Origin: Pontiella desulfatans | Lineage (GTDB): Bacteria > Verrucomicrobiota > Kiritimatiellia > Kiritimatiellales > Pontiellaceae | Direction: 5' to 3' | DNA length: 64,000 bases | Assembly: GCF_900890425.1 (NCBI RefSeq) | Contig: NZ_CAAHFG010000001.1 | Span: 1,550,001 to 1,614,000, forward strand | Notes under the pieces: generated by a model | Databases searched by the model: none | Told to the model about the DNA's origin: nothing | What the model saw: the letters and a program-made list of their open reading frames with translations, nothing else | Part shown: positions 9,180-39,079 of the stretch, piece after piece | Layout: every line of letters begins with the position of its first letter | Numbering within the stretch: position 1 is the first letter of the stretch | Made by a program: the position numbers and the translations under genes

Positions 9180-9212
9180 AAAAAGGGGCTTAAACCGAAG
9201 TTTAAGCCCCTT
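9180..9212 (-). terminator. Intrinsic terminator of the tRNA-Gly gene (minus strand)
   Basis: GGGGCTTAAA pairs with TTTAAGCCCC. Read on the minus strand it lies directly after the tRNA 3' end and runs into a T-run. It can also terminate the caspase operon coming from the other side. Confidence 0.8.
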
Positions 9213-9217
9213 GAAGA

Positions 9218-9266
9218 TGGAGCGGGCGAACAGATTCGAACTGTCGTAACCAGCTTGGAAGGCTGA
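9218..9266 (-). tRNA. 3' half of tRNA-Gly(UCC): probable attachment site
   Basis: Read on the minus strand, the fragment gives a complete anticodon arm (TCAGC-CTTCCAA-GCTGG, anticodon TCC), a variable loop, a T arm with TTCGAAT, and the acceptor strand CGCCCGC-T-CCA. The D arm and the 5' acceptor strand are missing: the sequence changes to unrelated AT-rich DNA right after the anticodon stem. A tRNA 3' half beside an integrase gene is the classic remnant left on one side of an integrated element. Since the missing 5' side faces right, the element should extend to the right and end at an intact tRNA-Gly, which is not in the window. Confidence 0.85.
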
Positions 9267-9386: not shown

Positions 9387-10946
9387 ATGGGATTAGCAAT
9401 ACGGAAGGATTCAAAATGGTGGTATGGCAGATACTACGTCGATGGAAAAGAGTTTGTTAAACGACTCAATGTTGAGGTGAGCGGGGAGCGACCTTCCAAG
9501 TTGTCATTGGAAGGAGATAAAGCCTTCGAGCGGTCCCGGATAAAAGCTGAAGAAGCTCTTAACGTGTTACTTGCAGATGTACATTCTAACAAAACAGAGG
9601 AACAGCGGGCTCAGGCTGTATATGAGGCGCGGGCTGGTTCGAAGTTGCGGAAATACAAGTTAAGCGACCTCTCCAAAATATGGTTGGAAAAACCCCGAAA
9701 GCGTGCCCCCTCCGAAGAGCATAGAAAGCAGTGTATTTCAAAGCTGGAAAAATTTTCCGGCTTCATTGAACTGCACTATCCAAAGGTAAGCCGAGTTGAT
9801 CAGGTGCGTTATGATCATGTGAAGGCATTTCTTGACCATCTGGAAGAGGATGGAGTGACTGCGGAGACATGGAACAAATATCTTTCCGTCATCAGGTCTG
9901 TGCTAAGGAGAGTTGGTGTTCCTGCTGCCGCCGATATCATTACCAAAGATGCGGACACAGTATTCCGCGAACCGTATTCAATTGAAGAACTCAATGCGAT
10001 TCTGGATAAAGCCAAATCTGATTCTCTAATTTTTTCGCTGGTTGTGACGGCGGCCTGTACGGCTATGCGTAGGAAAGATTGCTGTTATCTTCTATGGGAG
10101 TCGATTGATTTTGAAGAACGGTTTATTACCGTTAAAACCAGCAAGACTGGGGTCACTGTTGATATTCCAATGGCAGACCTATTAGCCGATCTGGTAGAGG
10201 GGCAGAAAGGTAATGGAAGTACCTACGTTTTTCCCGATGCAAAAGAGCTATATGAATCAGATCCAACAGCCATTACGCGCCGGTTCAAGCAGGTTTTAAG
10301 ATTGGCTGGATTTGGAAAAGCGCCGGTTGAATATAAGGCTGATGCATACACATTGGATGAACTCAAAGAAAAATCCGAGGAGCTTTATGCGGGAAATAAA
10401 CTAAAGCATGTTCTGGATGTGGTTGAGGCTTATTGTTCCGGGCTTTCCATGCGAAAGAGTGCTGAGCGTGCAGGGGTAACAATATCAACCGCATCTCTGT
10501 ACTTGAATGATTTAGAGTCTGCAACAGGCAAGGCCATCATTCGCGGTAAGGCAAGAACGGTCGATGATGGAGCAGGTCAAAGACGCGGTGAAATCAGAAG
10601 GAGTAGGAAAAATGGGAAGCTGGCAGCATCAATAAGAGACTTTCATTCCTTTCGAACGACCTGGGTAACTTTAGCCTTAATGAATGGAATGCCTATTGAA
10701 ACAGTGAGGAAGGTTACAGGGCATCAAACTGCCGACATCGTGACCAAACATTATTTTAGACCCCATCGAGCAGAACTTAAAAAGGCGATGCAAAAATCGT
10801 TGCCCGGACTACTGACTAGCTCCTCCTCAATTCTGGCTCCTAATGAACAGGCTTTGGAAGAATTGAGGGCTATAGGCAGAAAGATGGATAAATCTGAAAT
10901 TCTTAGGCGCGTCGATGAGGCCATCTCTTTATTAGAGAGAAAGTGA
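9387..10946 (+). CDS. Tyrosine recombinase / integrase with internal insertion, 519 aa
   Basis: This is a site-specific integrase of the phage/ICE type. The catalytic signature is present: Arg in CTAMRRKDC (about residue 227), Lys in VKTSKTG (about 252), HSFR (about 420), GHQ (about 446) and the nucleophile Tyr in KHYF (about 455). The N-terminal half has an arm-type region and a SAM-like core-binding domain. The stretch between the Lys and the H-x-x-R box is roughly 90 residues longer than usual and contains an HTH-like segment (MRKSAERAGVTISTASLYL). The start follows GAGGTAGGATT. It lies 120 bases from the tRNA-Gly fragment, so that site is its likely target. Confidence 0.9.
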   Translation: MGLAIRKDSKWWYGRYYVDGKEFVKRLNVEVSGERPSKLSLEGDKAFERSRIKAEEALNVLLADVHSNKTEEQRAQAVYEARAGSKLRKYKLSDLSKIWLEKPRKRAPSEEHRKQCISKLEKFSGFIELHYPKVSRVDQVRYDHVKAFLDHLEEDGVTAETWNKYLSVIRSVLRRVGVPAAADIITKDADTVFREPYSIEELNAILDKAKSDSLIFSLVVTAACTAMRRKDCCYLLWESIDFEERFITVKTSKTGVTVDIPMADLLADLVEGQKGNGSTYVFPDAKELYESDPTAITRRFKQVLRLAGFGKAPVEYKADAYTLDELKEKSEELYAGNKLKHVLDVVEAYCSGLSMRKSAERAGVTISTASLYLNDLESATGKAIIRGKARTVDDGAGQRRGEIRRSRKNGKLAASIRDFHSFRTTWVTLALMNGMPIETVRKVTGHQTADIVTKHYFRPHRAELKKAMQKSLPGLLTSSSSILAPNEQALEELRAIGRKMDKSEILRRVDEAISLLERK

Positions 10947-14041: not shown

Positions 14042-16105
14042 CTAATCAACCTCCATGTGATTTGAAAGCCGGTCTACCGAGATAGGTTTTCCTGTTAACC
14101 CATGTTTCGTCACAGTTTGTTCAACGCGCTGAACCTCTTTTTTGATGGTGGCAAGGCACAGGATGCGGGTAATCCGTTTTGCTGCCAGTGCCGTAGCGAT
14201 GTTTTCGCGGATGTGGCCGGGATTTGATTTACCCTGCAGTTCGATTTCGATGGCGATGCATTCCTCGCCCGGCTTTTCGGCGATGACATCGATGTTTTTG
14301 TTGTCGGCCATTCCTTCGATTTCAACGCGGTAGCCGAGTTTTTTATAATGGCGGGACACTTGCAGCTGGTAGAAGCGGTGCAGGTAGCCGCCCCGGCCTC
14401 TCATGGGGGGATGCGGAGGTTTTCCGATCAGGTCTAAACCATCATCTAGGATTTCGAAAAGGTCGCGCGGTCTTCCGCTGCTGTTGGAATGGACGGGATA
14501 GATTTCAACCAGTCCCTTTCTTTTGAGCCTCTTGATCTCGGTCTGAAGGGTTCCGGAGGGAATGCGTAATTGCTCGGATCGCCGGTCAACCGTTACGAAC
14601 GGATCGTCATAAATGTGTTTCAGAAGTCGGACTTCAACGGATTCTGTCTGTGCGTCCTCCTCAGGTTTCTTTTTCGGGCGTGCAGTTTCAGTGTTTCGGG
14701 ATGGATCTTGTTGGTGATCCGCAGTGGTTTTCTCCGGTTTGATATTGAAAAGGTCGGCGGCTGCCTGCATACGCGCCTGCAGTTCGGCGGCATTCGGTGG
14801 ATCAGGGAGATCGGGCAGTGTCATATTGCATTCCACATTGTGCGGCCATCGGTTGTCCGCAATGAAGGCCTTTCCGGGTGCCGGATTTCTGTTGACATAA
14901 AGATGCTGTTCTTTCGAGCACCCTCGAAGGTTCAGGAAGGTGTCGGTATCCTCTTTTCGACCGAAACCGCCGACCATCATGCGGGTGCCCGCATTGGCCA
15001 GCAGGCTGTGGGCGAGGTCGGTCGAGTATTGGCTTGCGGCGACCAGCCCGATTCCGTAGCCGCGCGCGGTCTGGACCAGGTCGGCAATGAAGGGGACGTG
15101 GTCCTGCTCCTCGGCCTTCCGGCGGAACAGTCCGGATGCCTCGTCGAATATGATAAGGTTGGTCAGTTCGCCCTGCAGGCCGCAAGTGAGTTTCCGGTAG
15201 AGGAAAGCCTGCGCCATCAGCAGCGTCATCACGAAGTTCTGCACGGTGGAGTGTGTGATGTCGTGCAGGAGAATCAGGCAGTGGTTGTTGACCAGTTTCT
15301 CGATGTCCGTCTGGGACTGGGTGGAAAACATGGCTGGAAAATGGCCGAACAGATCATTGAGGCGGTTCAGTACGGTCTCCTTCTGTTGTCCGTTCTTTGA
15401 CAGCTCCTTGTACGGCTGCTGGGCGATGAAAGTTTTCAGGTCACCCAGGGTAGGGAACTTCCCGTCCTTTTCGCACTGCTTGATCAGGCGGGTCGCATGC
15501 TCCATCAGAAAGGATGAACTCGCCTCGCGGATATCCAGGTGGTTGACCATGCATTCCGTAAAGATGCCGATCCATTTGTTCTGGGCAATCCCTTTGGGTG
15601 GGCACAGCGGATTGAAGGCCAGGGTCTCGACATCCAATATATGCAGGTCGGGCGAGACATTCAGCAGTTCGGTAAACTCCTGCTTGCGCTCAAGGATCAT
15701 CAGTTTCGGCGCATCCGGCATACGGAGTATCTGCATCAGCAGGTTTTTGATGACGGTGGTCTTTCCGCCGCCCGTCCGCCCCAACAGCAGCAGGTGTGTA
15801 ACCAAAGTCCTGATATCGATGCCATAGGGATAATTGTGGTGGGGCATGGTGCCCAGCCGAAGTTCGCCGTCAAGAATCACTTCATCGCGCGGCGCGGTCT
15901 TGCGGAACGGATCAGGATCTTTGCGCTGCTCCTTTATTTCATCCTCCACGACCTCCCTCAGTTCATTGAGGATGGTCCGGTCTTTGGGGTCTTCCACGAT
16001 CCAGTCCATGAGGAGTTTGATGCGGGGCACCGTGTCCAGGCCATGGTGGCGGATAATAGTGAACAGGCGGGAGTGGCTGATGGGGCGGGAATTCTGTTGT
16101 TTCAT
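14042..16105 (-). CDS. HerA-like ATPase with C-terminal nuclease-like domain, 687 aa
   Basis: This is a P-loop motor of the HerA/FtsK/VirD4 class: Walker A is GRTGGGKTT, Walker B is LIIFDEASG, and there is an arginine-finger-type region around GGFGRKEDTD. After a charged linker comes a winged-helix segment (VDRRSEQLRIPSGTLQTEIKRL) and a C-terminal region with NIDVIAEKPGEECIAIEIELQG, a PD-(D/E)xK-like arrangement in which ExE replaces ExK. I chose the ATG at 16105 (GAGGTCCCCT in front) over one 33 bases upstream. It overlaps the zinc-protein gene by 143 bases. Such motors pump DNA or act as conjugative coupling proteins. A second protein of the same architecture is encoded at 37055. Confidence 0.82.
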   Translation of the reverse strand: MKQQNSRPISHSRLFTIIRHHGLDTVPRIKLLMDWIVEDPKDRTILNELREVVEDEIKEQRKDPDPFRKTAPRDEVILDGELRLGTMPHHNYPYGIDIRTLVTHLLLLGRTGGGKTTVIKNLLMQILRMPDAPKLMILERKQEFTELLNVSPDLHILDVETLAFNPLCPPKGIAQNKWIGIFTECMVNHLDIREASSSFLMEHATRLIKQCEKDGKFPTLGDLKTFIAQQPYKELSKNGQQKETVLNRLNDLFGHFPAMFSTQSQTDIEKLVNNHCLILLHDITHSTVQNFVMTLLMAQAFLYRKLTCGLQGELTNLIIFDEASGLFRRKAEEQDHVPFIADLVQTARGYGIGLVAASQYSTDLAHSLLANAGTRMMVGGFGRKEDTDTFLNLRGCSKEQHLYVNRNPAPGKAFIADNRWPHNVECNMTLPDLPDPPNAAELQARMQAAADLFNIKPEKTTADHQQDPSRNTETARPKKKPEEDAQTESVEVRLLKHIYDDPFVTVDRRSEQLRIPSGTLQTEIKRLKRKGLVEIYPVHSNSSGRPRDLFEILDDGLDLIGKPPHPPMRGRGGYLHRFYQLQVSRHYKKLGYRVEIEGMADNKNIDVIAEKPGEECIAIEIELQGKSNPGHIRENIATALAAKRITRILCLATIKKEVQRVEQTVTKHGLTGKPISVDRLSNHMEVD

Positions 16106-16658
16106 AGGGGACCTCGTTTCCCGGTTCAGGTTCTTCAATAATCAACGGTTTCAGAAAAAGTCCGATGAGCCAGCCGGCTGCTTTCAGGGGTTTGAGTGCC
16201 TTGATTTTCTTCTCGCACTCCTCGCACACAAAACCATTGCCCTCGATGTAGGTCAGTTCATGCGGGGCGACCACATGACGGCAGACACATTCCTCATTCC
16301 GGGTCTGGTTGCGCATGCGGCGGTATTCCCGTTCGCAGGCCTTACAGACAGGTTTACCGGAAGTGACGGAAAAGAAACCGATGTCGCCGGGACTGGTCAT
16401 ATTGTGGCCGCACCCTTCCGCGCGAACGTTGTTCTTCAGGGTGATTTTATGCTTTGCCCCGTCCGCATCCCTATAAACCACTTCCCGTCGTATAAACTGG
16501 GAGCCGGATTGGCCGGGAACCTGGGCATTATTTACAGTGTTGAAAAGAATGGTACTTCCTGCCGGCAGTTCTGGTATTTCGATGTCCGGTTCAATGACGG
16601 GGTCCGGCGGCGTATCAAATCGATCCGCCACGTACCTCAGAATGTCGACAAACTTCAT
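15963..16658 (-). CDS. Cys-rich zinc-binding protein, 231 aa
   Basis: The start is the ATG at 16658 behind GGAGGTGCTTCC. Cys motifs are visible in the middle: CGHN, CKAC, CVCRH and CEEC, consistent with two zinc sites, followed by a hydrophobic stretch (AAGWLIGLFLKPLII) and a Pro-rich tail. The tail overlaps the start of the HerA-like gene in another frame for 143 bases. An AGTGTTACG box followed by TATATAG lies 28 bases before the ATG. No family is recognised. It may be a partner of the HerA-like motor. Confidence 0.65.
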   Translation of the reverse strand: MKFVDILRYVADRFDTPPDPVIEPDIEIPELPAGSTILFNTVNNAQVPGQSGSQFIRREVVYRDADGAKHKITLKNNVRAEGCGHNMTSPGDIGFFSVTSGKPVCKACEREYRRMRNQTRNEECVCRHVVAPHELTYIEGNGFVCEECEKKIKALKPLKAAGWLIGLFLKPLIIEEPEPGNEVPYETTEFPPHQPLPPVHYYPPPWPGHGAPHQTPHGLDRGRPQRPDHPQ

Positions 16659-16701
16659 GGAAGCACCTCCTATATAGAGTTTGGTCGTAACACTTTTGGG
16701 T

Positions 16702-16878
16702 TTACAGGGAGTCCGCAACCGCCGGTTGCGGTTGTCCGGTGACGCGTTTGCTCCACCGGCGCTTGCAGGACTTGCATCGGCGGATCCGCGCGTCGGCGGA
16801 ACGGTTTCTTCGTACACCCTTTGAAATGGTTTTTGTTGACCCGCAATATGGGCATTTATGTGGTCGGCCTCTCGGCAT
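16702..16878 (-). CDS. Small zinc-ribbon protein, 58 aa
   Basis: MPRGRPHKCPYCGS and RRCKSCKRRW give a CxxC-CxxC zinc ribbon of the kind seen at the N-terminus of InsA-type transposases. I chose the ATG at 16878 because GGAGGTGATC, a full match to the 16S anti-Shine-Dalgarno, lies just before it. The promoter region has an archaeal-looking BRE/TATA (CCGAAAAACATATAAAG) at the right distance. DNA binding is likely; the role is unknown. Confidence 0.6.
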   Translation of the reverse strand: MPRGRPHKCPYCGSTKTISKGVRRNRSADARIRRCKSCKRRWSKRVTGQPQPAVADSL

Positions 16879-19409: not shown

Positions 19410-19433
19410 GGTATTGCTCCTTTCGGTTTGTGG

Positions 19434-24199: not shown

Positions 24200-24741
24200 T
24201 GACTGTGGAAGAGAAAAAAGAACTACCAAAGCAGTATAAAGGTGTATGGGACGTTATCTGCCACTATTGGCGGATCTACGGAGGGTTTTCTGCAGTTATC
24301 AAATCGCCATACCTTCATGCATCAATCGTGTTCGCTTTATTGGTGCCGTTGTCCAAGACCGAAGATTGGTATGATGTTCCTCTCGATGTTCTTCCCTGTG
24401 TCCTAGGATTCAGTCTGGCTGGATATGCATTGATTCTTGCCCTCGGAGATGAAGCCTTCAGACGATTAATTGCCGGAGATTTCCCAGATGGAAAAGAATC
24501 GCCGTTCATGCGCACCAATTCAATGTTTCTGCATTTTATTGTCGTGCAAATCATAGCCCTCTTGCTCGCTCTCAACGCCAAGGCAAGAGATTTGGAGGGA
24601 GGGTTAATTGCGTATCTATCATATGTTGCATTCGTTTATTCATTACTCACTGCATTAGCAACCGGAGTGGAGATTTTTCGATGCTCGCGACTGTTCGATA
24701 AATTTGCAAAGCATCAAGAACGGCAGACGAAGGATCAGTAG
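24199..24741 (+). CDS. Membrane protein partner of the DUF4747 protein, 180 aa
   Basis: Four hydrophobic segments are visible: YLHASIVFALLVPL, VLGFSLAGYALILALG, FLHFIVVQIIALLLALNA, and YLSYVAFVYSLLTALATGVE. The ATG overlaps the DUF4747 stop, so the two are translated together. A two-gene pair of soluble protein plus small membrane protein is a common plan of abortive-infection systems, with the membrane protein as effector; for this pair that is inference. Confidence 0.7.
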   Translation: MTVEEKKELPKQYKGVWDVICHYWRIYGGFSAVIKSPYLHASIVFALLVPLSKTEDWYDVPLDVLPCVLGFSLAGYALILALGDEAFRRLIAGDFPDGKESPFMRTNSMFLHFIVVQIIALLLALNAKARDLEGGLIAYLSYVAFVYSLLTALATGVEIFRCSRLFDKFAKHQERQTKDQ

Positions 24742-24771
24742 AAACGAACTTGAAATGAAAGTAGTAATTAA

Positions 24772-25725: not shown

Positions 25726-25736
25726 GAATAAAAAAT

Positions 25737-26459
25737 ATGGCAACAAAAACTTCAATAGAATGGACGGAATCAACGTGGAACCCGGTGACGGGATGCACGA
25801 AGATCAGTACGGGGTGCAAGCATTGTTATGCGGAGCGCATGGCCAAACGTTTACAGGCCATGGGGCATCCCAATTATGTGGATGGCTTTAATGCGGTTCG
25901 ATATCACTACAATGCGTTGGATGTGCCGCGAAAGTGGAAAAGCCCGCAGATGATATTTGTGAATTCAATGAGTGATCTTTTTCACAATGATGTGCCCGCG
26001 CAGTTTATTGATGAGGTGTTTTTTACGATGAAAGAAACGCCGATCCATACCTTTCAGGTTTTAACCAAGCGCGCTGGGCGGCTTGAAAAGCTCGCCAAAC
26101 GCTTTGACTGGTCTCCGAATATCTGGATGGGCGTTACCGTGGAGACCGCCGACCATGTGGATCGGATTGATCATTTGCGCAATGTGCCAGCAACGGTGCG
26201 TTTCCTGTCATTGGAACCTTTGCTCGGGCCGTTGCCGAATTTGAACCTAGATGGAATCAACTGGGTCATCGTGGGCGGTGAATCGGGGCCGGGCGCGCGT
26301 CCGATGAAATCGGAGTGGGTTGAAGACCTGCGGGATCAATGCCTGAAAGCAAATGTTCCTTTCTTCTTTAAGCAGTGGGGCGGTGTCCAGAAAAAGAAGG
26401 CCGGACGACTGCTCGATGATCGGACATGGGATGACATGCCGGAACAAAATTTGAAATGA
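25737..26459 (+). CDS. DUF5131 / phage Gp37-Gp68 family three-Cys protein, 240 aa
   Basis: SIEWTESTWNPVTGCTKIS then TGCKHCYAERMAKR carries the C-x6-C-x2-C motif near residue 20, like a radical-SAM iron-sulfur site. WMGVTVETAD, VRFLSLEPLLG and WVIVGGESGPGARPM are further family landmarks. It is the partner of TcmP encoded directly upstream. Its stop overlaps the Fic start by four bases, so all three genes probably form one operon. Confidence 0.87.
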   Translation: MATKTSIEWTESTWNPVTGCTKISTGCKHCYAERMAKRLQAMGHPNYVDGFNAVRYHYNALDVPRKWKSPQMIFVNSMSDLFHNDVPAQFIDEVFFTMKETPIHTFQVLTKRAGRLEKLAKRFDWSPNIWMGVTVETADHVDRIDHLRNVPATVRFLSLEPLLGPLPNLNLDGINWVIVGGESGPGARPMKSEWVEDLRDQCLKANVPFFFKQWGGVQKKKAGRLLDDRTWDDMPEQNLK

Positions 26460-27558: not shown

Positions 27559-28269
27559 ATGACAGAAGCAATGCAGCGGGATATGCGGTCACGGACTGAG
27601 CCGCTGATTCACGCAGTACGGGCGCATGAGCATGGGGCGAAGGGCTGGAGTTTTTCCGGGATCGCCGCTCGGATGAACCGCCTATACGATCAATTGAACA
27701 ACGATTTCTTTATGGGCAAGCTGCCGAAGGCACTGATATCGATCGGCCCGGATCTGATTATGCGATACGGGTATTATCAGGTTGGCCGTGACGGGATCGG
27801 GGCGAAGCACCGGATTCATTTAAACTCAAGGCACTTTGGGCGAAGCGAATCTGATGTGGGGGTGACGCTGCTTCATGAAATGATCCATGTATATCAGCAC
27901 CTGTTCGGGCACGTGGGCCATCGTCATCGATACCACAACCGGGAATTCGTGGATATTGCGGGGACATTGGGATTCGAGTCGCAGGTCGGCTCCGGGGTGA
28001 CGAAGCAGGTGAGCGGATGGCTACGGACGAAGCTGGATCAATTGGGGTTCTCCGCATTCGATAAGATGATTCCCGATCAACAGGCAAAGCCGATTAAAAA
28101 ACCGCTTCGGAAGGTGATGTGGAAATGCATATGCGGGCAGGAGGCCTGGGTTGAAAAAGGCGAGTGCCTGGATGCGGTATGCAAAATATGCCACTCCGCG
28201 TTTGAGCGGCCGCAAGAACTGATGGATTCGAAGGAAGAGATTGATCTCGCCGTCGCCACGGCGGCCTGA
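27559..28269 (+). CDS. SprT-like metalloprotease, 236 aa
   Basis: The zinc motif LLHEMIHVYQH (about residue 110) and the upstream LYDQLNNDFFMGKLP fit the SprT/Spartan-like family. The C-terminal part has a four-Cys zinc ribbon (WKCICGQEAWVEKGE, then CKICHSAF). SprT-like proteins cleave DNA-protein crosslinks or act in element maintenance. ATG behind GAGGTGATAGA. An 8-bp inverted repeat (GGATTTGC/GCAAATCC, 27500-27529) lies just upstream. Confidence 0.83.
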   Translation: MTEAMQRDMRSRTEPLIHAVRAHEHGAKGWSFSGIAARMNRLYDQLNNDFFMGKLPKALISIGPDLIMRYGYYQVGRDGIGAKHRIHLNSRHFGRSESDVGVTLLHEMIHVYQHLFGHVGHRHRYHNREFVDIAGTLGFESQVGSGVTKQVSGWLRTKLDQLGFSAFDKMIPDQQAKPIKKPLRKVMWKCICGQEAWVEKGECLDAVCKICHSAFERPQELMDSKEEIDLAVATAA

Positions 28270-28309: not shown

Positions 28310-28350
28310 TGAATTAAAATAAACCGCGAGCTTGATCCGGTTTGTTTGGT

Positions 28351-28380
28351 TGCGTATATACGAATTATGGATTCGCAAAG
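28351..28380. promoter_or_regulatory. abiE operator copy 2, over the start codon
   Basis: TGCGTATATACGAA...CGCAAAG repeats copy 1 and spans the ATG at 28367 and the AT-rich element before it. AbiEi antitoxins are known to repress their own promoter by binding two repeats, and the layout fits. Confidence 0.6.
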
Positions 28381-29149
28381 TAAAAGTAAAATAAACCAGA
28401 TGCTTCAAAATCTGGTTCCGGGCACGGTGCTCACGCCAACATGGTTGGCTGGGCAGGGTGTGTCGAGGGATTTGGCCTTGCGGTATGTCACTTCCGGGTG
28501 GCTGGAGCGGGTCGGGCGCGGCGCCTATCAGCGCAGGGGGGATTCCGTCGATTGGCAGGGCGCGGTCCATACCCTCCAAACTCAGCTAGGGTTGACCGTC
28601 CACGTTGCCGGATTGAGTGCGTTGCAACTCAAAGGCCTGGGTCATTATCTATCGATGGGGAAGGAAGCTTCTGTTTTGCTGGTCAGCGATGGTGCCGAGC
28701 GGTTGCCGGCCTGGTTTTCCGGCAAGGAGTGGGGTGCCGAAATTGTGCACCGGTGTGTCCAGTTGTTTGATTTTTCAGAGAACCTTCCATTAACTGTGGT
28801 GGAGCACAAGGGCTTTAGCGTCAGGGTATCGCCGCCGGAGCGCGCGGCTTTCGAGATGATCTATTGTGTTGACGGCAATTCGGCATTCGACCATGCCCGT
28901 ACCGTGTTCGATGGACTGGGGGCATTGCGTCCGCAGGAGGTTCAGAAATTGCTGGAGGCCTGTCGGTCCGTGCGGGTCAAGCGGTTGTTTCTTTGGATGG
29001 CGAGGGACTGTGCGCATCCCTGGCTCAAGCATGTTGATCCGGATCGTGTGGATCTGGGAAGCGGAAAGCGCGTGGTGTACGACGGGGGCGAACTGGATCG
29101 CGAACTGCTGATCACCGTGCCGCGCAGGAAAGAGGACGCCGATGTTTAA
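28367..29149 (+). CDS. abiEi: AbiEi-type antitoxin, 260 aa
   Basis: The protein begins with a winged helix (VLTPTWLAGQGVSRDLALRYVTSGWLERVGRGAY), then the AbiEi C-terminal domain (LTVHVAGLSALQLKGLGHYL). It is the antitoxin and autorepressor of a type IV toxin-antitoxin system that causes abortive infection. The ATG at 28367 has no clear Shine-Dalgarno sequence; the operator repeat covers the start. It overlaps the toxin gene by 8 bases. Confidence 0.88.
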   Translation: MDSQSKSKINQMLQNLVPGTVLTPTWLAGQGVSRDLALRYVTSGWLERVGRGAYQRRGDSVDWQGAVHTLQTQLGLTVHVAGLSALQLKGLGHYLSMGKEASVLLVSDGAERLPAWFSGKEWGAEIVHRCVQLFDFSENLPLTVVEHKGFSVRVSPPERAAFEMIYCVDGNSAFDHARTVFDGLGALRPQEVQKLLEACRSVRVKRLFLWMARDCAHPWLKHVDPDRVDLGSGKRVVYDGGELDRELLITVPRRKEDADV

Positions 29150-30053
29150 CCGGGTCTATGTCAGGCAGGTGGAGCTTCTGCTCCAGGTCATCCCCTTGCT
29201 TCAAAAGCATGATTGCTTCGCGCTGAAGGGCGGGACGGCCATGAATCTTTTTGTCCAGGACATGCCGCGCCTGTCGGTGGATATCGATTTGGCCTACCTG
29301 CCGCTTGTTCCCCGCGAAGAAGCGCTGGCCGGTATCTCGGGCGCGTTGGAACAAATCGCCGTTGAGATAGAGGCGGAATTGCGGGAGACCACGGTTCTTG
29401 GCCAGCCCGTAGCCGGCGTAACAGGGCGGCTGGTAGTGAACGCCGGGAATGCACAGATCAAGGTTGAACCGAACTTTGTGTTTCGCGGTGCTTTGTTTCC
29501 ACCGGAAACGCGCACGCTTTGTGCCAGCGCCCAGACGGAATTCGAACGGTTTGCAGAGAGTAATATCCTATCCGAAGCGGACCTGTATGGCGGCAAGATT
29601 TGCGCCGCGCTCGACCGTCAGCATCCGCGCGACCTGTTCGATGTGCATCTCATGTTCAACAGCATGGGTTTAACCGATGAGATCCGTTCGGCCTTTACGG
29701 TCTATCTGGCCGGGCATCCACGCCCGATGGCGGAGTTGCTCAATCCGAATGAACAGCCCCTGGAGAGCATCTATGCATCCCAGTTTGTCGGAATGACGCG
29801 TGAGCCGGTGTCCATTGATACGCTCATCGAAACGCGTAGCCGTCTCGTAAGGGACTTGAATAGCCAACTGACCGAAAACGAGCGGCTTTTCCTGCTGTCG
29901 ATCAAGATGGGTGCGCCGGAGTGGGATCGACTTCCAATCGAACATCTCGAACAACTGCCGGCCTTGAAGTGGAAGTTGCGCAATGTCGGAAACATGGAAG
30001 TCGCCAAACACAGATTAGCCGGCGATGAACTTCGACGCGTTCTGCAACTCTGA
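29142..30053 (+). CDS. abiEii: AbiEii-type nucleotidyltransferase toxin, 303 aa
   Basis: The nucleotidyltransferase core shows FALKGGTAMNLF and LSVDIDLAYL (GG...DxDL), then a lysine-containing IKVEPNFVF and the conserved EADLYGGKICAALDRQHPRD(L/I)FD block. AbiEii toxins modify tRNA or other targets and stop growth. It follows abiEi with an 8-base overlap, the usual order. Confidence 0.9.
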   Translation: MFNRVYVRQVELLLQVIPLLQKHDCFALKGGTAMNLFVQDMPRLSVDIDLAYLPLVPREEALAGISGALEQIAVEIEAELRETTVLGQPVAGVTGRLVVNAGNAQIKVEPNFVFRGALFPPETRTLCASAQTEFERFAESNILSEADLYGGKICAALDRQHPRDLFDVHLMFNSMGLTDEIRSAFTVYLAGHPRPMAELLNPNEQPLESIYASQFVGMTREPVSIDTLIETRSRLVRDLNSQLTENERLFLLSIKMGAPEWDRLPIEHLEQLPALKWKLRNVGNMEVAKHRLAGDELRRVLQL

Positions 30054-30590: not shown

Positions 30591-31841
30591 CTAAAGCCCC
30601 AAGAACCGTTTCGTCTTGGCTCCGAATCCTTTTTTCTGGGGTTGTGGGGTATGGGACAGGCTGTCTGTCGGTCGTGCCGCCATCGTCATAAAGTGGTTGG
30701 CCTGGTCGTGATCCAGTAGTCCTTCGTCCACGGCTTCCTCAATGAGCTGATCGGCGATTTCGCGCGGCAGCTGGCCTATAAAATCGCGTGCATCCTGCAA
30801 TTTGTCGGGGTCGCCGGAGACGGTGTCGTCAACCAGGTTGTTCCAACGGTCCATGATTTCGCCGACGTCGCCGAACATGGACCCGCCGCCGCTGATGGCG
30901 GCATATTGGTTATTGGTGAGTCGGCGCTGCAGGTTGTAGTCAAGCGCGACGGATTGATCCTGGTACTGCATTTCAGACAGTTCTCCAGAATCCCTCTTTT
31001 CTTTTAACTCTTCCTGTCGTTCCCGGTTTTTAGAATATAGATGGCGCGCATTGTCGATGGCTTCCAGTGCGCCGTGCACATGCGGCAGGTAGAGGTCTTT
31101 GTCATGGGGGGACTCCGAAATACGCTCATCATAGAATTCCAGTTTATGGATAAGCTCGCGATGCAGGTCATACATTTCCCGGTCGGCGCTGGAGGTATAG
31201 CCGGCATCATCGCGCAACCGGCGGTAATGCTCCTCCTCTGTATCTTCGTCAACGAATTCAATCACGCGGTCCTCGGCCTGGGAAATTATGTCGTCTTCAT
31301 AATCGGTGAGTTGGGCCTCAGCTTCAGATTCTTCATCCAGATCTTCGTTCCTTTGATACTTTTGTGCAACGCGCTCCATCTTTCGGGCATGTTCTTCCTC
31401 CCGTGATTCCGGCTTTCTGAACGTCTTTTCTTCATCGTCTTTTTCAAACGCGGTCAGTTGGGGAATGCTGATGCCGTGGCCGTCTTCATCATCCATATGG
31501 GCATAATCATAGAAATCGCCGACGTTTTGTTCGGCCTGCAGTAGGCCCCGGTTGCTGTCGCGCCCACCGCTGCCCCTGCGAGATCGCGCGTTATGATCAT
31601 CCTCCGCCCACGGGTCTTCGTGCTCATTGGGATCCTCAGCTGTAAATTCATCCTCCTTCCAAATGTCTTCCTCCGTGGGTCTGTGTTCCCGGAGCCATTC
31701 TTCCTCATCAAATTCCTCCCCATTCTTTTTGGCTTCGTGCCGAGCCTCTTCAAGTTCCTCATCATAATCATCATACTCGTCGGGATCTTCATGTTCGTCG
31801 GGGTCATCGAAATCGTCATACTCATCATAATATCGTGACAT
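30591..31841 (-). CDS. Highly acidic protein, 416 aa
   Basis: I chose the ATG at 31841 behind AGGAGGTTTACAC. The first 90 residues are mostly Asp and Glu with Tyr (YDEYDDFDDPDEHEDPDEYD), and the rest is charged helical sequence. It has no membrane segment or enzyme motif. It is the last gene of the unit orc1-like, membrane/coiled-coil protein, acidic protein. A structural or DNA-mimic role is possible. An AGTGTGACG box lies 27 bases before the ATG, and a TTCCA-N5-TGGAA palindrome just above it. Confidence 0.7.
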   Translation of the reverse strand: MSRYYDEYDDFDDPDEHEDPDEYDDYDEELEEARHEAKKNGEEFDEEEWLREHRPTEEDIWKEDEFTAEDPNEHEDPWAEDDHNARSRRGSGGRDSNRGLLQAEQNVGDFYDYAHMDDEDGHGISIPQLTAFEKDDEEKTFRKPESREEEHARKMERVAQKYQRNEDLDEESEAEAQLTDYEDDIISQAEDRVIEFVDEDTEEEHYRRLRDDAGYTSSADREMYDLHRELIHKLEFYDERISESPHDKDLYLPHVHGALEAIDNARHLYSKNRERQEELKEKRDSGELSEMQYQDQSVALDYNLQRRLTNNQYAAISGGGSMFGDVGEIMDRWNNLVDDTVSGDPDKLQDARDFIGQLPREIADQLIEEAVDEGLLDHDQANHFMTMAARPTDSLSHTPQPQKKGFGAKTKRFLGL

Positions 31842-31893
31842 GTGTAAACCTCCTATAAGAAGGGAGGCGTCACACTTCCAGGCATTGGAAAGA

Positions 31894-33042
31894 TTACCGG
31901 TGGAACTTGATTTCCTGTTGTTTGGCAACTTTCTTTTCGTCTTTCAACTTTAGCCGGGTAAGAGATTTTAGCTTTCGCTCGGCTTTTTTGATCTGTTTCA
32001 GTTCGCCGTTCAGTTGCTGCTCCATCCGTAGCGCCGTTACGACGGCGGACAGGGTTTGGGGTTGGGATTGGGCCTGTGCGTGGGTGGCAACGGTATCGAT
32101 CTGGCGCCGCAGTTCCCGGTGTCGGGTCTCGGCAGTTTTAAGCATCTGCTCGATCGCATGCTCTTCCAGGATTTTCTTCCGTTCGAGCAGGATCTGCTGC
32201 TGGAGTTTTTTGCGGTCGTCCTCCCCAAGTTCCTTGCAGTATTCCCGCAGTTGCTGGAGTTCGTGCCAGTCAAAGTTTCGCAGTCGCCGATCCATGATTC
32301 GTACTTTATCCAGTGTTCGGATAACGTCGTCTGTTTTATGAGCGATAGCGGCTGTCGCTTGAGCGACCTCTTTAAAATCGGGATTGGAGTGTTCCAGCTC
32401 CGTTTTCAGGCCCTTGAGGGTTTTCTCGATCCTTCGGTCTTCCTTCTGGGCTTCGGGCAGTTCGCGGCCCTGGGTTTTAGCGATCTGCTTAACTTCGCTC
32501 TTTTCCCGTTTACGGTCGAGCATGGCGACGAAGCCAGCGTCGTTCCCCGGCTTTCCGTGCGGCCACAGGCGCATGATGAGTTTCCATGTACAGACCAAAA
32601 AAGCGATTGCCGCAATCAGTACCAATGCCGGCGCATCCCGCAGTACCTTCGGATAGATGCCTGCTGTTAACAGATAGATGATAATGTACGCGACGAGTGC
32701 GGCAGTGTCCCATTTCATGCCTAGCTGATGCAGGAGGTGAAACAACAGTAGGCCGAACAGGATCAGCATGATAATGGCTGCGAGGCCGCCGGCCATTCGC
32801 AGGTTCCATCCAAACTGGGCCTCGGAAATCGCAAGGCCTGTTCCGAGCATGATGCCCAGCGCCGTTGCCAGCGCCTTTCCCGGTCGCCCCCGAAACCGGG
32901 TTCCAAAGACCGCCTGGCACAGGGCAATGAATATGGTGCAGTAGATAATCAGGTCAAAAAGCGCATAGTATCTGTCATAGGTCGCTGCAAGGTTCCAGCC
33001 CGCGAAGGGGGCTAAAGCGTCAGCAAATGGGTCGTAGCTCAT
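31894..33042 (-). CDS. Polytopic membrane protein with long coiled coil, 382 aa
   Basis: Residues about 25-165 contain five hydrophobic segments (ALFDLIIYCTIFIALCQAVF, ATALGIMLGTGLAIS, MAGGLAAIIMLILFGLLLFHLL, ALVAYIIIYLLTAGIY, LVLIAAIAFLVCTWKLIM). The remainder is a charged helical region likely to form a coiled coil. It overlaps the orc1-like gene by four bases. The fold recalls membrane components of conjugation or viral systems, but I cannot name the family. Confidence 0.65.
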   Translation of the reverse strand: MSYDPFADALAPFAGWNLAATYDRYYALFDLIIYCTIFIALCQAVFGTRFRGRPGKALATALGIMLGTGLAISEAQFGWNLRMAGGLAAIIMLILFGLLLFHLLHQLGMKWDTAALVAYIIIYLLTAGIYPKVLRDAPALVLIAAIAFLVCTWKLIMRLWPHGKPGNDAGFVAMLDRKREKSEVKQIAKTQGRELPEAQKEDRRIEKTLKGLKTELEHSNPDFKEVAQATAAIAHKTDDVIRTLDKVRIMDRRLRNFDWHELQQLREYCKELGEDDRKKLQQQILLERKKILEEHAIEQMLKTAETRHRELRRQIDTVATHAQAQSQPQTLSAVVTALRMEQQLNGELKQIKKAERKLKSLTRLKLKDEKKVAKQQEIKFHR

Positions 33043-34289
33043 TCATAATTCACCTCGTCTAAATCAAAGCTGTTCAATATCGTCCGCTTCATGGACGCAA
33101 GTATCTGTGGGGTCAGGGAAACATAGATTTCCTTGGTTCGGCCGTAGCGGCCGCGCGACACGGTACGGGCACGGATAAAACCATACATGTCGAGTTCACT
33201 TAAAAGATCGGTAAATGCCCGCTGGGTCAGCGGAGGCATTCCTGCCTCATGGCAGAAGCGTTCGTAAACGAGATAGGCATCGCCGGTGTGCAGCGCCCGT
33301 CCCTGCGCCTTTCCGGTCAGTGCGGCATAAAGCGCCGCCTGCAACTGCTTGGGGCAGGTTCGGATCATCGCGAGGTATTTATCCTTTTCGATTTCCTCGT
33401 AGGCCTCGTCCACACAGTCGAGCGTGATTTTTTCGCCCTTCTTTTCCGCGAGCTGTGCTGAGCGCGTCAGCAGGTCTACGGCCTTCCGGGCGTCGCCGTG
33501 GGTTCGCGATGCATACGCCGCGATCTTCGGCACCACACCTTCGTCAACCATTTTGGGGCGCAGGGCTTTTTCAACGCGGATGTTGAGGATGTGCTGGAGG
33601 TCGTTGGCATTGTAGGGATCAAAAAGGAGTTCGCGCATTTTAAGGCAGCTCTTTATTCGCGGATCCAGGTTTTCCGTCCAGCTCAGTCGGTTGGATGAAA
33701 ACAGCAGGATCAGTTTCGCTTCGATTTTCTGCGGCAGCCGTTTGATCAGGAATTTATAGAAAGAGTCCGGGTCGGTGCGGATGTTGTCGGCTTCATCAAT
33801 AAAGATGACGATGTATCCCTTCGCGCTTTTCAATTTGGTTTCAATGGAGCGCATCAGGTCGTCGAGGCTGATGCCCCGCTTATAGTATTTGCTCGCGCCC
33901 ATCAGGCAACCGAGGTTGTTCAGCGCGCGAAAGCACGGGGCAGGGCAGCACAGATCAAGATGGTATTGCCGAAAAGGTATATGTTGCTCTGAACAAAGCA
34001 TGGATATTTCGTGAAGCAGATACAGCAAAGTGATCGTCTTGCCTGTGCCGGTCTTGCCCAGTACAGATAAATGGACGGGGTGCCCGTTTTGGAACACGGG
34101 CGCAAAATGGCGGGTGATTTCCCCGATCTCCCGGTTCCGGACGTTTGCATTGAATATTTCCGTGAGTACGTCGAACTGGCCCTCCCGCGACAACTGTTCA
34201 TCGTCCAGGTATTGCGGGTGCTGGATGATTGCGTTTTTGAACGCTTCATAGATCTGTTCCCGGATGTGGGATTTAATGGTTGTTTGCAT
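33039..34289 (-). CDS. Orc1/Cdc6-type AAA+ replication initiator, 416 aa
   Basis: Orc1/Cdc6 proteins recognise origins in archaea. Walker A is LGKTGTGKT, Walker B is IFIDEADN, sensor 1 is LLFSSNRLSW, and the family-defining sensor 2 is THGDARKAVDLLTRSAQLAE. The C-terminal winged helix reads GDAYLVYERFCHEAGMPPLT then FTDLLSELDMYGFIRARTVS and RGRYGRTKEI, as in archaeal Cdc6. The length of 416 is normal. It starts a minus-strand unit with overlap to the next gene. The upstream intergenic region holds candidate origin boxes. A bacterial AAA+ protein with the same domain is possible, but the signature is strong. Confidence 0.85.
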   Translation of the reverse strand: MQTTIKSHIREQIYEAFKNAIIQHPQYLDDEQLSREGQFDVLTEIFNANVRNREIGEITRHFAPVFQNGHPVHLSVLGKTGTGKTITLLYLLHEISMLCSEQHIPFRQYHLDLCCPAPCFRALNNLGCLMGASKYYKRGISLDDLMRSIETKLKSAKGYIVIFIDEADNIRTDPDSFYKFLIKRLPQKIEAKLILLFSSNRLSWTENLDPRIKSCLKMRELLFDPYNANDLQHILNIRVEKALRPKMVDEGVVPKIAAYASRTHGDARKAVDLLTRSAQLAEKKGEKITLDCVDEAYEEIEKDKYLAMIRTCPKQLQAALYAALTGKAQGRALHTGDAYLVYERFCHEAGMPPLTQRAFTDLLSELDMYGFIRARTVSRGRYGRTKEIYVSLTPQILASMKRTILNSFDLDEVNYE

Positions 34290-34682
34290 CTGAAAATCAC
34301 CTTCCAGCGGAAAGGAGGTGGGCTGATCTATTTAATCTTTTCCAATCCCTGGAAAGTAGTGACGCAGGTTGTGGTGCGGTGGGAGTAAATTTCCGATGCG
34401 GTCTATATATATACCTATCTCTATTCTGAAAGAGTAAGTAGTAAGTACTGTATGGTGGTGACGCTTTTAAACGGATGCGGCTTTGCCGAATGGCAATTGA
34501 TGGTTGGGGGTTGTTTGTTGATGGGGGCGAGTGGCAAAAGGATGTGTAAGGTGATTCTTGTGGCGATCAAAAATGCATTTCCGATACTTACAGTGGAAGT
34601 TCACTCACGCCGGTCATCGCGAGATTGTCTTGGTCGCCCGTAGACAATCTGCGCAGAAGACGCAGGTTGCAAGGTGAAGAAT
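34290..34682. other. Intergenic region upstream of the orc1-like gene: candidate origin
   Basis: This 393-base stretch has no gene I can support. It contains CTTCCAGCGGAAAGGAGG (34301-34318) and TTACAGTGGAA (34588-34598), both resembling the archaeal origin recognition box core TTCCAGTGGAAAC; a TTCCA-N5-TGGAA palindrome (34340-34354); a run of TATATATA (34403-34411); a GTGACGC box at 34359 and another near 34457; and a 9-bp hairpin at 34622-34650. Origins next to orc1 are the archaeal norm. Each single match is weak. Confidence 0.45.
34622..34650 (+). other. Perfect 9-bp inverted repeat
   Basis: AGATTGTCT and AGACAATCT are separated by 11 bases, 33 bases before the ATG at 34683. It may be an operator or an RNA hairpin. 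Confidence 0.45.
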
Positions 34683-34937
34683 ATGAGCGAAAATAAGCCG
34701 ATTAAGAAGTTTGGAGCAGGCGCGATCTCAGCGTCTGTCTGGAAGAATGAGTTGAAGGATGGGACTGAAATCAATGCGGTGACCATCGAGCGTCGATATC
34801 AGAACAAGGATGGCGACTGGCAGAGCACAAACAACCTGAGGGTAAATGATCTTCCACGGGTTGCATTGCTGGCACAGAAGGCCTACGAATTTCTGGTGTG
34901 CGGTAAGCACGATGAAGCGAAGGAGGTGGAAGAATGA
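34683..34937 (+). CDS. Conserved small protein of mobile elements, 84 aa
   Basis: ATG behind AAGGTGA. The sequence KKFGAGAISASVWKNELKDG then VTIERRYQNKDGDWQST and DLPRVALLAQKAYEFL belongs to a small family I have seen in many bacterial and archaeal mobile elements, always without known function. Its stop overlaps the next start. Confidence 0.7.
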   Translation: MSENKPIKKFGAGAISASVWKNELKDGTEINAVTIERRYQNKDGDWQSTNNLRVNDLPRVALLAQKAYEFLVCGKHDEAKEVEE

Positions 34938-35402: not shown

Positions 35403-35744
35403 ATGAACAAAGCGAAAATAAATCAAATCATCAGCTACATCAAAGCGCAGGATGAATTTCCGTTTGATGTATTCGATGTGGAAGACCAGGAGTCCGTACT
35501 TGGATACTTTGGCTTCCACTCAAAACTGGATGACGAAGAACGGAAAATCATGCAGGCCGAGCTGATGGAGATGGCGGAAGCAGCGCAGTCCGCAGAGATG
35601 GCAAGAATCATGTGCGCAGAACCGGTGCCGCAGAGATTATACCGGAAGAAATACTGCACAAGAACTGAGCAGTCAATGAGCATGGAAGAATGGCTGAAGA
35701 CACTGCCCGAAGAGCTTCGGGGAGGCGTTGCCTCCGTGGTATAG
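35403..35744 (+). CDS. Hypothetical protein, 113 aa
   Basis: ATG behind AAAAGGTGATAAA. The protein is acidic and helical (KLDDEERKIMQAELMEMAEAAQS) with no recognised motif. A 12-bp hairpin lies 30 bases upstream, and the stop codon is inside the left arm of another hairpin. Confidence 0.55.
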   Translation: MNKAKINQIISYIKAQDEFPFDVFDVEDQESVLGYFGFHSKLDDEERKIMQAELMEMAEAAQSAEMARIMCAEPVPQRLYRKKYCTRTEQSMSMEEWLKTLPEELRGGVASVV

Positions 35745-36507: not shown

Positions 36508-37065
36508 ATGGCAGGAAACTATAACTGGTATTATCCGGGCTATGCGCCCGATCAAAAACTGCAGAAGGACGCCTACGGCTATCATGTCGAAACCGGCCGT
36601 CCCGCATTTGAAATCATACGGGAAATTCCGGCAGCGAAGCAGCCGTTCGGGAAGCCCGACGGACTCTATGAAAAGATTTTCAATGACGGGAATGCGCGAG
36701 AACATGATCCGATGAATTTCGGGGCGGACCGGATGTTATTACACGGTGATCACATCGACTGCCTGATGAAACAGTTGCAAGCACGGCACACGATCTCATA
36801 CAGCGTTCTGAATGATATTGAGTTTCAGGAAACCCGCGTGAATTCATCGCTATCCCAATTGAATGGTCTACCTGTGATGGCAGGTCGATGTTCAAAACAG
36901 GGTATCGACCTGGAAAAGCAACTAGCACGATTGAGCCAGGAACGTCACGCCGAAGAGATCGCATGCTGGCGGGATACCAACCGGTTGCTGGGAAGCATAT
37001 TTGATTCATGGACAGGCTATGCCGATGAGCGGCGGAAAAAGAGGTTGATGGACGATGACCTTTGA
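36508..37065 (+). CDS. Hypothetical protein upstream of HerA-like ATPase 2, 185 aa
   Basis: ATG preceded by GGTGA. The N-terminus is aromatic (MAGNYNWYYPGYAPDQK), and the C-terminal half is helical and charged. The gene overlaps the HerA-like gene by 11 bases, so the products are made together. No motif is recognised. Confidence 0.65.
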   Translation: MAGNYNWYYPGYAPDQKLQKDAYGYHVETGRPAFEIIREIPAAKQPFGKPDGLYEKIFNDGNAREHDPMNFGADRMLLHGDHIDCLMKQLQARHTISYSVLNDIEFQETRVNSSLSQLNGLPVMAGRCSKQGIDLEKQLARLSQERHAEEIACWRDTNRLLGSIFDSWTGYADERRKKRLMDDDL

Positions 37066-39079
37066 GGAATCGCTCAAAAAACTGGCCGTCCATATCGGGC
37101 AGATCAAGGCGTTGAAACTATGGCGTCAATACCAGCTGTCCGATGCATTCGGAAGACGGGATATAGAGGCTTTGATCGAGTTGCAGCTCCATCAGAAATA
37201 TGGCGAGGATCCGCTGCGCGATGAAAATGGATTGCAGGTGCCGCCGGAAAATGACGCAGCAGGTGAGTATGAACTCGGGCAGGTTTTGAACTATGAAAAA
37301 GTCCTCCATCCGTTCGGAATCCGGGAGGATGAATTTATCCAGCACATGGCGATTTTTGGGCGGAGCGGGGCAGGTAAAACCAATACGGTAGCCCTGCTCA
37401 TAAAAGAGCTGGTTCGTCACAAAAAACCGTTCCTTATATTTGACTGGAAACGGAACTATCGAGACCTGTTGGCGCACGATGTTCCACTGGAAGTTTACAC
37501 CGTCGGAAGGCCAGTTCATCCGCTCTATTTTAACCCGCTGATTCCACCCCCTGGAACCGATCTAAAAGTGTGGTTAAAAAAACTGATCGAGATTATATCC
37601 CACGCCTACTTTTTAGGAGAAGGAGTTATGTTTATTCTGATGGAAGCTATCGATGCCGTTTACTCAAAATTCGGGTGCTATGGAAATGCTCCCGAGCGCT
37701 ATCCAACTCTGAAGGATGTACTTGAGTTTTTGGAAAAGATGCCGGTGAAGGGCCGGAAGGCTATGTGGCTCGATTCCACCATGCGGGCGGTTCAAAGTTT
37801 ATGCTTTGGACAGGTGTCCGACGTCATCAATACCGACTCCCAAACCGGGGTGCAGCAACTGCTCGATAAGAACGTTTGCCTTGAGCTCAATTCGCTGGCG
37901 CAAAACGAAAAAACATTCCTGATCGAAACACTGATGGTGTGGATACACCATTGCCGAATGCTTGAGCCCGACCGGGAAACATTCAAGCACTGCATCATCG
38001 TGGAAGAGGCGCACAACATACTGACGAATACCGGAAAGGAAACGGTCATCGATCTGATTCTGCGGGAGATCCGGGAGCTCGGTGAATCCATCGTGCTGAT
38101 AGACCAGCATCCGAGCCAGATATCGGTTCCAGCCCTTGGAAACACATATTGTACCATCGCGCTCAATATGAAACACAGCAAGGATATCAACTCACTCGCT
38201 GAGATGATGCGGATCCCGAAAGAGAACCGCGAAACGCTGGGCCTGCTGCCCATTGGTCATGCGGTCGTGAAACTCCAGTCGAGGTTCATCCATCCATTTG
38301 AAATCCAGATTCCGAAAGTCGATCTCGATAAAGGATCGGTCTCCGATGCGTACCTATCGCAAATTTATGGATCCTATTCCAGCGATTCCACATCAAAGGG
38401 CAACCATAATGCCGGTTCCAGTGAAAAGGAACCCATTCCCGAAAACCATAGAATAGAGAAGCATTCTACTGGAACAGGTCTATCTGAGACCGAAGAAGTA
38501 TTGCTTAAGGATATTCGTAAGCATCCTTTTGATGGAGTTGTTAAACGATATTCAAGATTGGGGATCAGTCGAAGGCGGGGGAACCATGCCAAACAGGGAC
38601 TTATTGAAAAAGGAGTAATCCAGCCCGTTGACGTCCCTACAAAAACCGGCAAGGTCGTCCTCCTCGACTTCACCCCCGCCATGCGCGAATCCATGAAGCG
38701 GAATGGGATTAAAGTCACCAAGCGCAAGGAAGGTGGAATCGTTCACAACTATTGGAAAAACGGAATCCTTAAGCAGCTCGAAAAAGACGGATGGACTGTC
38801 GAACTCGAAAAACCTATAGGCAATAATATGGCCATTGACCTCTACGCTGAAAAAGCTGGTAAACGCATTGCAGTCGAAGTCGAAACCGGCACCCGCGGCG
38901 CTGAGAACATAGAAAAACTGATACCCTTGAAGCTTGATCGCATCATCAGTTTCAGTACGACAAACGAATCTAAGATCAAAACATTGCGGGATCTCAGTAC
39001 CCGATCAATCCATTTAAACAACCTGAAGATCCAAGATCCAAGCTCATGGGACCGAAAGAATGAATTGTGGATCAAATGA
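37055..39079 (+). CDS. HerA-like ATPase 2 with nuclease-like C-terminus, 674 aa
   Basis: Walker A is FGRSGAGKTNT and Walker B is CIIVEEAHN, with the ILIDQHPS block typical of HerA/FtsK motors (here VLIDQHPSQ). An N-terminal helical region and a mid-protein winged helix (YSRLGISRRRGNHAKQGLIE) precede a C-terminal domain with AIDLYAEKAGKRIAVEVETG, a PD-(D/E)xK-like layout ending ExE. It has the same three-part architecture as the minus-strand protein at 14042-16105, though the sequences have diverged. DNA translocation for transfer or replication is likely. Confidence 0.82.
   Translation: MTFEESLKKLAVHIGQIKALKLWRQYQLSDAFGRRDIEALIELQLHQKYGEDPLRDENGLQVPPENDAAGEYELGQVLNYEKVLHPFGIREDEFIQHMAIFGRSGAGKTNTVALLIKELVRHKKPFLIFDWKRNYRDLLAHDVPLEVYTVGRPVHPLYFNPLIPPPGTDLKVWLKKLIEIISHAYFLGEGVMFILMEAIDAVYSKFGCYGNAPERYPTLKDVLEFLEKMPVKGRKAMWLDSTMRAVQSLCFGQVSDVINTDSQTGVQQLLDKNVCLELNSLAQNEKTFLIETLMVWIHHCRMLEPDRETFKHCIIVEEAHNILTNTGKETVIDLILREIRELGESIVLIDQHPSQISVPALGNTYCTIALNMKHSKDINSLAEMMRIPKENRETLGLLPIGHAVVKLQSRFIHPFEIQIPKVDLDKGSVSDAYLSQIYGSYSSDSTSKGNHNAGSSEKEPIPENHRIEKHSTGTGLSETEEVLLKDIRKHPFDGVVKRYSRLGISRRRGNHAKQGLIEKGVIQPVDVPTKTGKVVLLDFTPAMRESMKRNGIKVTKRKEGGIVHNYWKNGILKQLEKDGWTVELEKPIGNNMAIDLYAEKAGKRIAVEVETGTRGAENIEKLIPLKLDRIISFSTTNESKIKTLRDLSTRSIHLNNLKIQDPSSWDRKNELWIK

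Follow-up and report, generated by a model that had tools for sequence, protein, structure and literature searches.

The 64,000-nucleotide stretch of DNA considered here (the window; Pontiella desulfatans contig NZ_CAAHFG010000001.1, positions 1550001-1614000, from a six-contig 8.66-Mb genome) encodes a protein of the archaeal-type Orc1/Cdc6 replication initiator family within an integrated element that begins at a tRNA-Gly fragment. Few features separate the domains as sharply as the replication initiator, which is DnaA in bacteria and Orc1/Cdc6 in archaea and eukaryotes. The gene, orc1/cdc6 (cdc6 below), lies at 33039..34289 on the minus strand, and its 416-amino-acid product is a full Orc1/Cdc6-family initiator by both curated cut-off and fold. 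The curated cut-off of NCBIfam TIGR02928 ('orc1/cdc6 family replication initiation protein') is 181.3 bits and the protein scores 249.6, and the Pfam models Cdc6_C (4.8e-23) and Cdc6_lid (1.3e-17) are both matched far above cut-off. An earlier note, made from the sequence alone, had reported the open reading frame (ORF) and its motifs at this position, and all are present exactly as claimed: Walker A GKTGTGKT, Walker B IDEADN, sensor-2 THGDARKAVDLL and the wing GRYGRTKEI. Its assignment to the archaeal-type family likewise holds in the profile searches, as TIGR02928, Cdc6_C and Cdc6_lid all pass their cut-offs.

The protein has every part of an AAA+ initiator, with Walker A and B, sensor 1, sensor 2, a lid and a C-terminal winged helix, and Pfam places the winged helix (308-394) right after the lid (232-297), with no insert. 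Across 12 aligned bacterial copies Walker A, the DE of Walker B, the sensor-1 N, a DPR motif, GDAR and the winged-helix GR-G are invariant. Orc1/Cdc6 ranked first throughout the PDB and family-model searches. The closest PDB sequences, Sulfolobus solfataricus Cdc6-1 (2qby_A, 1.6e-50) and Aeropyrum pernix ORC1 (2v1u_A, 3.7e-50), are both DNA-bound crenarchaeal initiators, and the same two structures head the fold search with the predicted model (2v1u_A, 7.6e-25; 2qby_A, 1.2e-24). The model has a mean predicted local distance difference test score (pLDDT) of 86.5, and its template modelling score (TM-score) against 2qby_A is 0.73 by query length and 0.82 by target length.

Upstream of cdc6, 384 bp separate it from the divergent gene. 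This gap contains two inverted 23-base sites, the spacer between them, which is AT-rich in part, and one more dyad. Both sites were located by pattern search and matrix scan. The first site resembling an archaeal origin recognition box (ORB), CCGCATCGGAAATTTACTCCCAC, is at 34379..34401 on the minus strand; the second, TTACAGTGGAAGTTCACTCACGC, is inverted and degenerate and lies at 34588..34610 on the plus strand. The spacer between them (34402..34587) is a candidate unwinding element, 74% AT in its best 50 bp. A dyad scan placed the third ORB-like dyad (TTCCAGCGGAAA / TTCCGCTGGAAG) at 34301..34313, just before the cdc6 start codon. The dyad of the bacterial sites, TTCCANTGGAAA, is the core of the archaeal ORB consensus CTTCCAGTGGAAACGAAAGGGGT (PMC4153887; an ORB dyad consensus is also given in PMC4164010), and the plan of archaeal origins places inverted ORBs on either side of an AT-rich element, next to cdc6 (PMC3528665, PMC6742236). 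At the level of sequence the locus follows that plan, with an ORB dyad beside cdc6 and inverted boxes flanking an AT-rich element. The paired ORB-like sites, which the earlier note did not mention, are what argues most strongly for a putative origin here.

The sites are a property of the bacterial family and not of the window alone. An inverted pair lies upstream of 11 of 13 copies (10 by site-layout analysis and C2 by matrix scan), and the DNA between the paired sites is AT-richer than its surroundings, the enrichment being weak in some copies. When the 23-base site was searched with up to two mismatches in the 53.7 Mb of eight genomes, there were 17 matches, all within ~620 bp upstream of cdc6, while a reversed control pattern gave two. 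With one mismatch allowed, the 4.9 kb of DNA upstream of the bacterial cdc6 copies match the archaeal core TTCCANTGGAAA at 24 positions, whereas dinucleotide shuffles average 0.16; near-palindromic sites are counted at up to two adjacent positions. A matrix trained on Kiritimatiellota and HGW-15 sites only recovered the distant Desulfobacterota sites, as well as the unseen second C2 site, from 1.05 million scanned positions. The matrix also scores 37482-37504 on the plus strand, within an ATPase gene of the element (TTCCACTGGAAGTTTACACCGTC, conserved in five copies), a stretch that coding constraint or coincidence may explain.

The cdc6 promoter has a further putative archaeal feature, GAAAAGATTAAATA at 34329..34342 on the minus strand (-53 to -40 of cdc6), which is like a box of the archaeal type, that is, a transcription factor B recognition element (BRE) and TATA box. 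Exact TTTAWATA is found at the promoter position in six of the 13 cdc6 copies, which are related by descent, and in three of 212 background ORFs, all three themselves cdc6 genes. A box of this kind precedes most of the bacterial cdc6 copies and hardly any other gene of these regions. The TTTAAATA box resembles an archaeal BRE/TATA but may be a bacterial -10 element, and we leave it unexplained.

The left border of the element is a 63-bp attachment (att) repeat at 9203..9265 on the minus strand, the 3' part of a tRNA-Gly(UCC), located by genome pattern search, ARAGORN and an exact-repeat script. The genome has a single further occurrence of the fragment sequence, at C1:1647811 within an intact tRNA-Gly gene beyond the window, where the second att copy, identical over its 63 bp, has window-coordinate 97792-97854 (C1:1647792-1647854). 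The element therefore spans 9203 to ~97.85 kb, ~88.6 kb in all, and extends past the window end. Just inside the left att copy is a tyrosine recombinase (integrase) gene, 9387..10946 on the plus strand (Pfam Phage_integrase, 8.9e-16), which starts 122 bp inward of the repeat; a homologue with 53% identity adjoins the truncated tRNA-Gly(CCC) of copy C1b. Two att repeats, one of them in an intact tRNA gene, and an adjacent integrase identify a tRNA-integrated element. The earlier note was thus right that the tRNA-Gly fragment is real and that the initiator lies in an integrated element of a bacterial genome. It had also drawn a border between the element and a saccharolytic chromosome near 39 kb; we reject a right-hand border there, as the matching 63 bp lie at 97.8 kb, in the intact tRNA-Gly.

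The genome of P. desulfatans encodes four cdc6 copies (100, 92, 78 and 63% identity) over two contigs, each adjoining a truncated tRNA with an intact twin elsewhere in the genome. The three copies other than that of the window repeat its plan in consistent orientation with tRNA-Met, tRNA-Gly(CCC) and tRNA-Tyr; their fragment-to-intact-tRNA distances are 107, 348 and 460 kb, with less certain borders, and elements may be stacked within the longer of these distances. Tandem integration at one tRNA is suggested by a pair of identical tRNA-Met 3' fragments (C2:496955 and C2:511646) separated by 14.7 kb.

Other bacteria also carry the gene. A scan of GTDB genomes found copies in Pontiellaceae B12227 and in metagenome-assembled genomes (MAGs) of Lentisphaerae (14.1 Mb, possibly mixed), Kiritimatiellae and Deltaproteobacteria, and a search around the last gave three further genomes at ~41% identity, one with its copy on a 4.8-Mb contig. 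The family is rare: four of 395 genomes in the phylum sample around the Deltaproteobacteria MAG, two of 388 around the Lentisphaerae MAG and three of 346 in the window's own class (G000, the genome of the window, G228, from its genus group, and G915), where three others listed are weak AAA matches. Copies are accordingly known from Kiritimatiellota/Lentisphaerae and Desulfobacterota, and so are spread over bacterial phyla. Contig chimerism, which the earlier note considered possible and less likely, is rejected given the four diverged copies in one genome and the further copies in other bacteria, one of them on the 4.8-Mb contig. No close relatives were found in phages and viral contigs, and the plasmid search returned archaeal plasmids only, at identities of up to 36%, so that a viral or plasmid origin of close relatives was rejected as well.

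In the phylogeny, a fully supported branch (100/100) with a long stem (1.22) separates 13 bacterial proteins from 16 archaeal ones. Archaea are thinly sampled in the tree, by 12 plasmid proteins and four sequences from the PDB, and it comprises Orc1/Cdc6 proteins only; within that sampling, it does not place the protein outside Orc1/Cdc6. At this depth of archaeal sampling the tree resolves neither the root nor the nearest archaeal lineage, and it gives no donor lineage or direction of transfer; the earlier note had already described the direction as not readable from the window. Within the bacterial side, the HGW-15 copy groups with the Kiritimatiellota copies, and P. desulfatans C1b is 98-99% identical to the copy in Pontiellaceae B12227, a different genome. 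The family therefore moves between hosts.

The copies share a core of genes around cdc6. The stop codon of cdc6 overlaps by four bases the start of a gene at 31894..33042 on the minus strand, whose translation-coupled product has five predicted transmembrane helices and a long helical tail; its model is of low confidence (mean pLDDT 66.5) and was left out of the fold searches. Divergent from cdc6, on the plus strand, are genes for two small conserved proteins at 34674..34937 (homologues in C2, C1b, B12, C1c and L006) and 35403..35744 (from copy comparison), a conserved protein at 36508..37065 (homologues in the same five copies) and, directly after it, a DUF87/HerA-like hexameric-type ATPase at 37055..39079 (Pfam, 1.1e-14). 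The closest NCBIfam model for this ATPase is CedD (4.5e-25, below cut-off). Homologues of the ATPase are near cdc6 in L006 and in Desulfobacterota G623, G625 and G464; CedD is again the best model for the distant Desulfobacterota ATPase, which in G623 is located behind a PD-(D/E)XK nuclease. These six genes, cdc6 included, make up the common core. Most copies add a second DUF87/HerA-VirB4-like ATPase (14042..16138, minus strand; Pfam DUF87, 8.9e-10; closest NCBIfam CedB, 3.4e-12, below cut-off; conserved in C2, C1b and B12), the conserved gene upstream of it (15963..16817, minus strand, start possibly further in) and an SprT-like gene (27559..28269, plus strand; Pfam, 9.5e-10), the latter two also with homologues in C2, C1b and B12. 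An acidic protein encoded downstream of the cdc6 operon (30591..31928, minus strand, from copy comparison) is best conserved in C2. The gene right after cdc6 in HGW-15 encodes ParA, which is what a module for replicon maintenance would be expected to have.

The cargo starts at 39.1 kb, the point at which homology with the sister copy C2 ends. From 39771 to the window end at 64000 the element carries hybrid two-component regulators, a rhamnogalacturonase/pectate-lyase-like protein, a sulfatase and lectin-domain proteins; these saccharolytic genes are cargo, since they lie inside the att pair. Smaller features are scattered through the rest of the window. Two copies of an apparent insertion sequence (941-2397, plus strand, and 21858-23314, minus strand; 1457 bp, 99.9% identical) have terminal inverted repeats (CATTCATCCCATAG) and short target duplications, and their 446-amino-acid ORF has no match in Pfam or NCBIfam. 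A JAB-ThiF (E1) fusion at 17226-18731 with small ORFs at 18753-19217 and 19285-19722 resembles a bacterial ubiquitin-like conjugation module. The stretch 23333-26459 encodes DUF4747, the three-Cys-motif partner TcmP and a radical-SAM mobile pair A-like protein (PADLOC candidates PDC-M41A/B), with a Fic protein next, and an AbiEi/AbiEii type IV toxin-antitoxin pair is at 28346-30053. Just outside the left element end, 5667-9038 encodes two adjacent caspase-domain proteins, one with pentapeptide repeats. The ArdC anti-restriction region at 1-5481, which recurs with the cdc6 copies C1c and Pontiellaceae B12227, hints at another element next to this one, to the left of the att site.

The system closest in plan is the archaeal chromosomal Orc1-1/ORB origin, such as S. 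solfataricus Cdc6-1 at oriC1. The two share the protein family and fold, the wing RGRYG.TKE, the TTCCANTGGAAA dyad, the inverted boxes around an AT-rich region and the position of the origin (here a candidate one) next to the initiator gene, and the initiator is ~28-31% identical to archaeal Orc1-1 structures in structural alignment. They differ in that the window has a bacterial host, a tRNA-integrated element, no MCM found and no archaeal G-string. Orc1/Cdc6 also serves as the initiator of accessory replicons in haloarchaeal and methanogen plasmids, though these proteins are only 24-36% identical to the bacterial copies and lie on the opposite side of the fully supported branch. As a positive control for the dyad, the archaeal plasmid orc genes were mostly negative, with the TTCCANTGGAAA core upstream in two of 12, in line with family-specific ORBs (PMC3528665). 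The two ATPases of the window find their closest NCBIfam models in CedB and CedD of crenarchaeal Ced DNA exchange (PMC11868833), and the ATPases occur as a pair in both systems; with scores of 88 bits against a cut-off of 600 and 46 against 700, this is resemblance only. Bacterial integrative and conjugative or mobilizable elements share the tRNA att site, tyrosine recombinase, VirB4/TraG-like ATPases and metabolic and defence cargo, but their replication is DnaA-, RepA- or relaxase-based, whereas this element has an archaeal-type initiator. In the 9-40 kb part Pfam recognised no relaxase and no other initiator family, and the two VirB4/HerA-like ATPases are the only parts of type IV secretion system kind recognised there.

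We consider it probable that cdc6 and its sites form an archaeal-type replicon module that maintains bacterial integrative elements once excised, with Orc1/Cdc6 starting replication at the ORB-like sites. Under this scenario, the tyrosine recombinase would excise the element as a circle, Orc1/Cdc6 would bind the inverted sites directly upstream of its own gene, and the bound protein would open the AT-rich spacer and start replication of the circular element. The third dyad, over the cdc6 start codon, suggests autoregulation. No MCM helicase of convincing strength was found in the eight host genomes, where the best PF00493 match is 33 bits over a short stretch and a distant helicase could be missed; the same search also gives matches in Escherichia coli. 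With no MCM-strength match found, the initiator would have to hand over to DnaB of the host or to a helicase that the element itself encodes; the HerA-like ATPase next to it is a candidate for the latter by association only. The chances seem to us about even that an archaeal-type module (initiator, ORB-type origin and perhaps a BRE/TATA box) has lived and diversified without MCM in the mobile elements of two or more bacterial phyla, its Orc1/Cdc6 having been rewired to a DnaB-type or HerA-type helicase.

Several observations weigh against replication from these sites. Besides the lack of an MCM match, the 88.6-kb element has no GC-skew origin signature, so skew was set aside as origin evidence; its absence fits an element that is mostly integrated, without long-term autonomous bidirectional replication. 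The second site of the window copy is degenerate, and no recognizable site pair precedes two of the 13 copies (L007 and its second copy G291b). The archaeal G-string after the dyad is not present in that form, the bacterial sites having TACTCCCAC / TTACCCACC instead; it is also missing in some archaeal families (PMC4164010). Finally, the 23-base pattern was derived from the same upstream regions that it describes, and what is independent of that derivation is its absence elsewhere and the recovery of sites across clades.

Some of these points would also fit Orc1/Cdc6 as a transcription regulator, or copy-number control, of its own operon and the divergent genes, the element being replicated passively or by another initiator. 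Its ORB-like sites lie in a divergent promoter region with one dyad overlapping the cdc6 start, no MCM and no GC-skew signature were found, and there is a precedent in the haloarchaeal or Sulfolobus Orc1-2 regulators, archaeal Orc1-2 being a known non-initiator that controls damage-response genes (PMC9738581). We nevertheless regard this role as unlikely: the best PDB matches are initiator-type Orc1-1 proteins, an inverted pair around AT-rich DNA follows the plan of an origin and not of an operator, the sites are found at cdc6 only and not at other genes, and Pfam finds no other initiator family at 9-40 kb. Somewhat more doubtful still is an anti-invader defence system of the Orc/CDC6-HerA-nuclease type (PMC10853773). 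Both that system and the window have Orc/Cdc6 near a HerA/FtsK-type ATPase in bacterial mobile DNA; the HerA-like ATPase is near cdc6 in both bacterial subclades, preceded by the PD-(D/E)XK nuclease in G623, and defence genes are numerous in the elements. Yet in the Orc/CDC6-HerA system, as described by comparative genomics (PMC10853773), an insert in the form of an inactive nuclease domain separates AAA+ from winged helix, and here the insert is absent, the lid running straight into the winged helix. The PADLOC match for the initiator is also marginal, the searches turned up no nuclease family alongside the ATPase of the window, and defence leaves the paired ORB-like sites without explanation.

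It is very improbable that the module is a relic, a once-functional archaeal-type replicon decaying in bacterial chromosomes. The degenerate second site in the window and the two copies without a pair could be taken that way, but all 12 aligned copies have open frames and every catalytic motif; G623 and G625, each flagged with one stop at the end of the matched stretch, are nonetheless complete ORFs. Four differently diverged copies in one genome and the near-identical C1b and B12227 copies point instead to recent movement.

A search of the open literature, with most subscription journals outside it, found no description of a bacterial Orc1/Cdc6 replicon with ORB-like sites. Such proteins may already have been labelled by automatic annotation, and what is new here is the putative inverted ORB-like sites upstream of the bacterial cdc6 copies. 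If replication does start at these sites, an archaeal-type initiation module can be transplanted into bacteria and kept, and the bacterial Orc1/Cdc6 family would be a direct test of Orc1-type initiation without MCM. It may also provide a small, mesophilic and genetically separable model of Orc1 origin recognition, and the elements that carry it show how genes for sulfated-polysaccharide degradation may travel among Kiritimatiellota.

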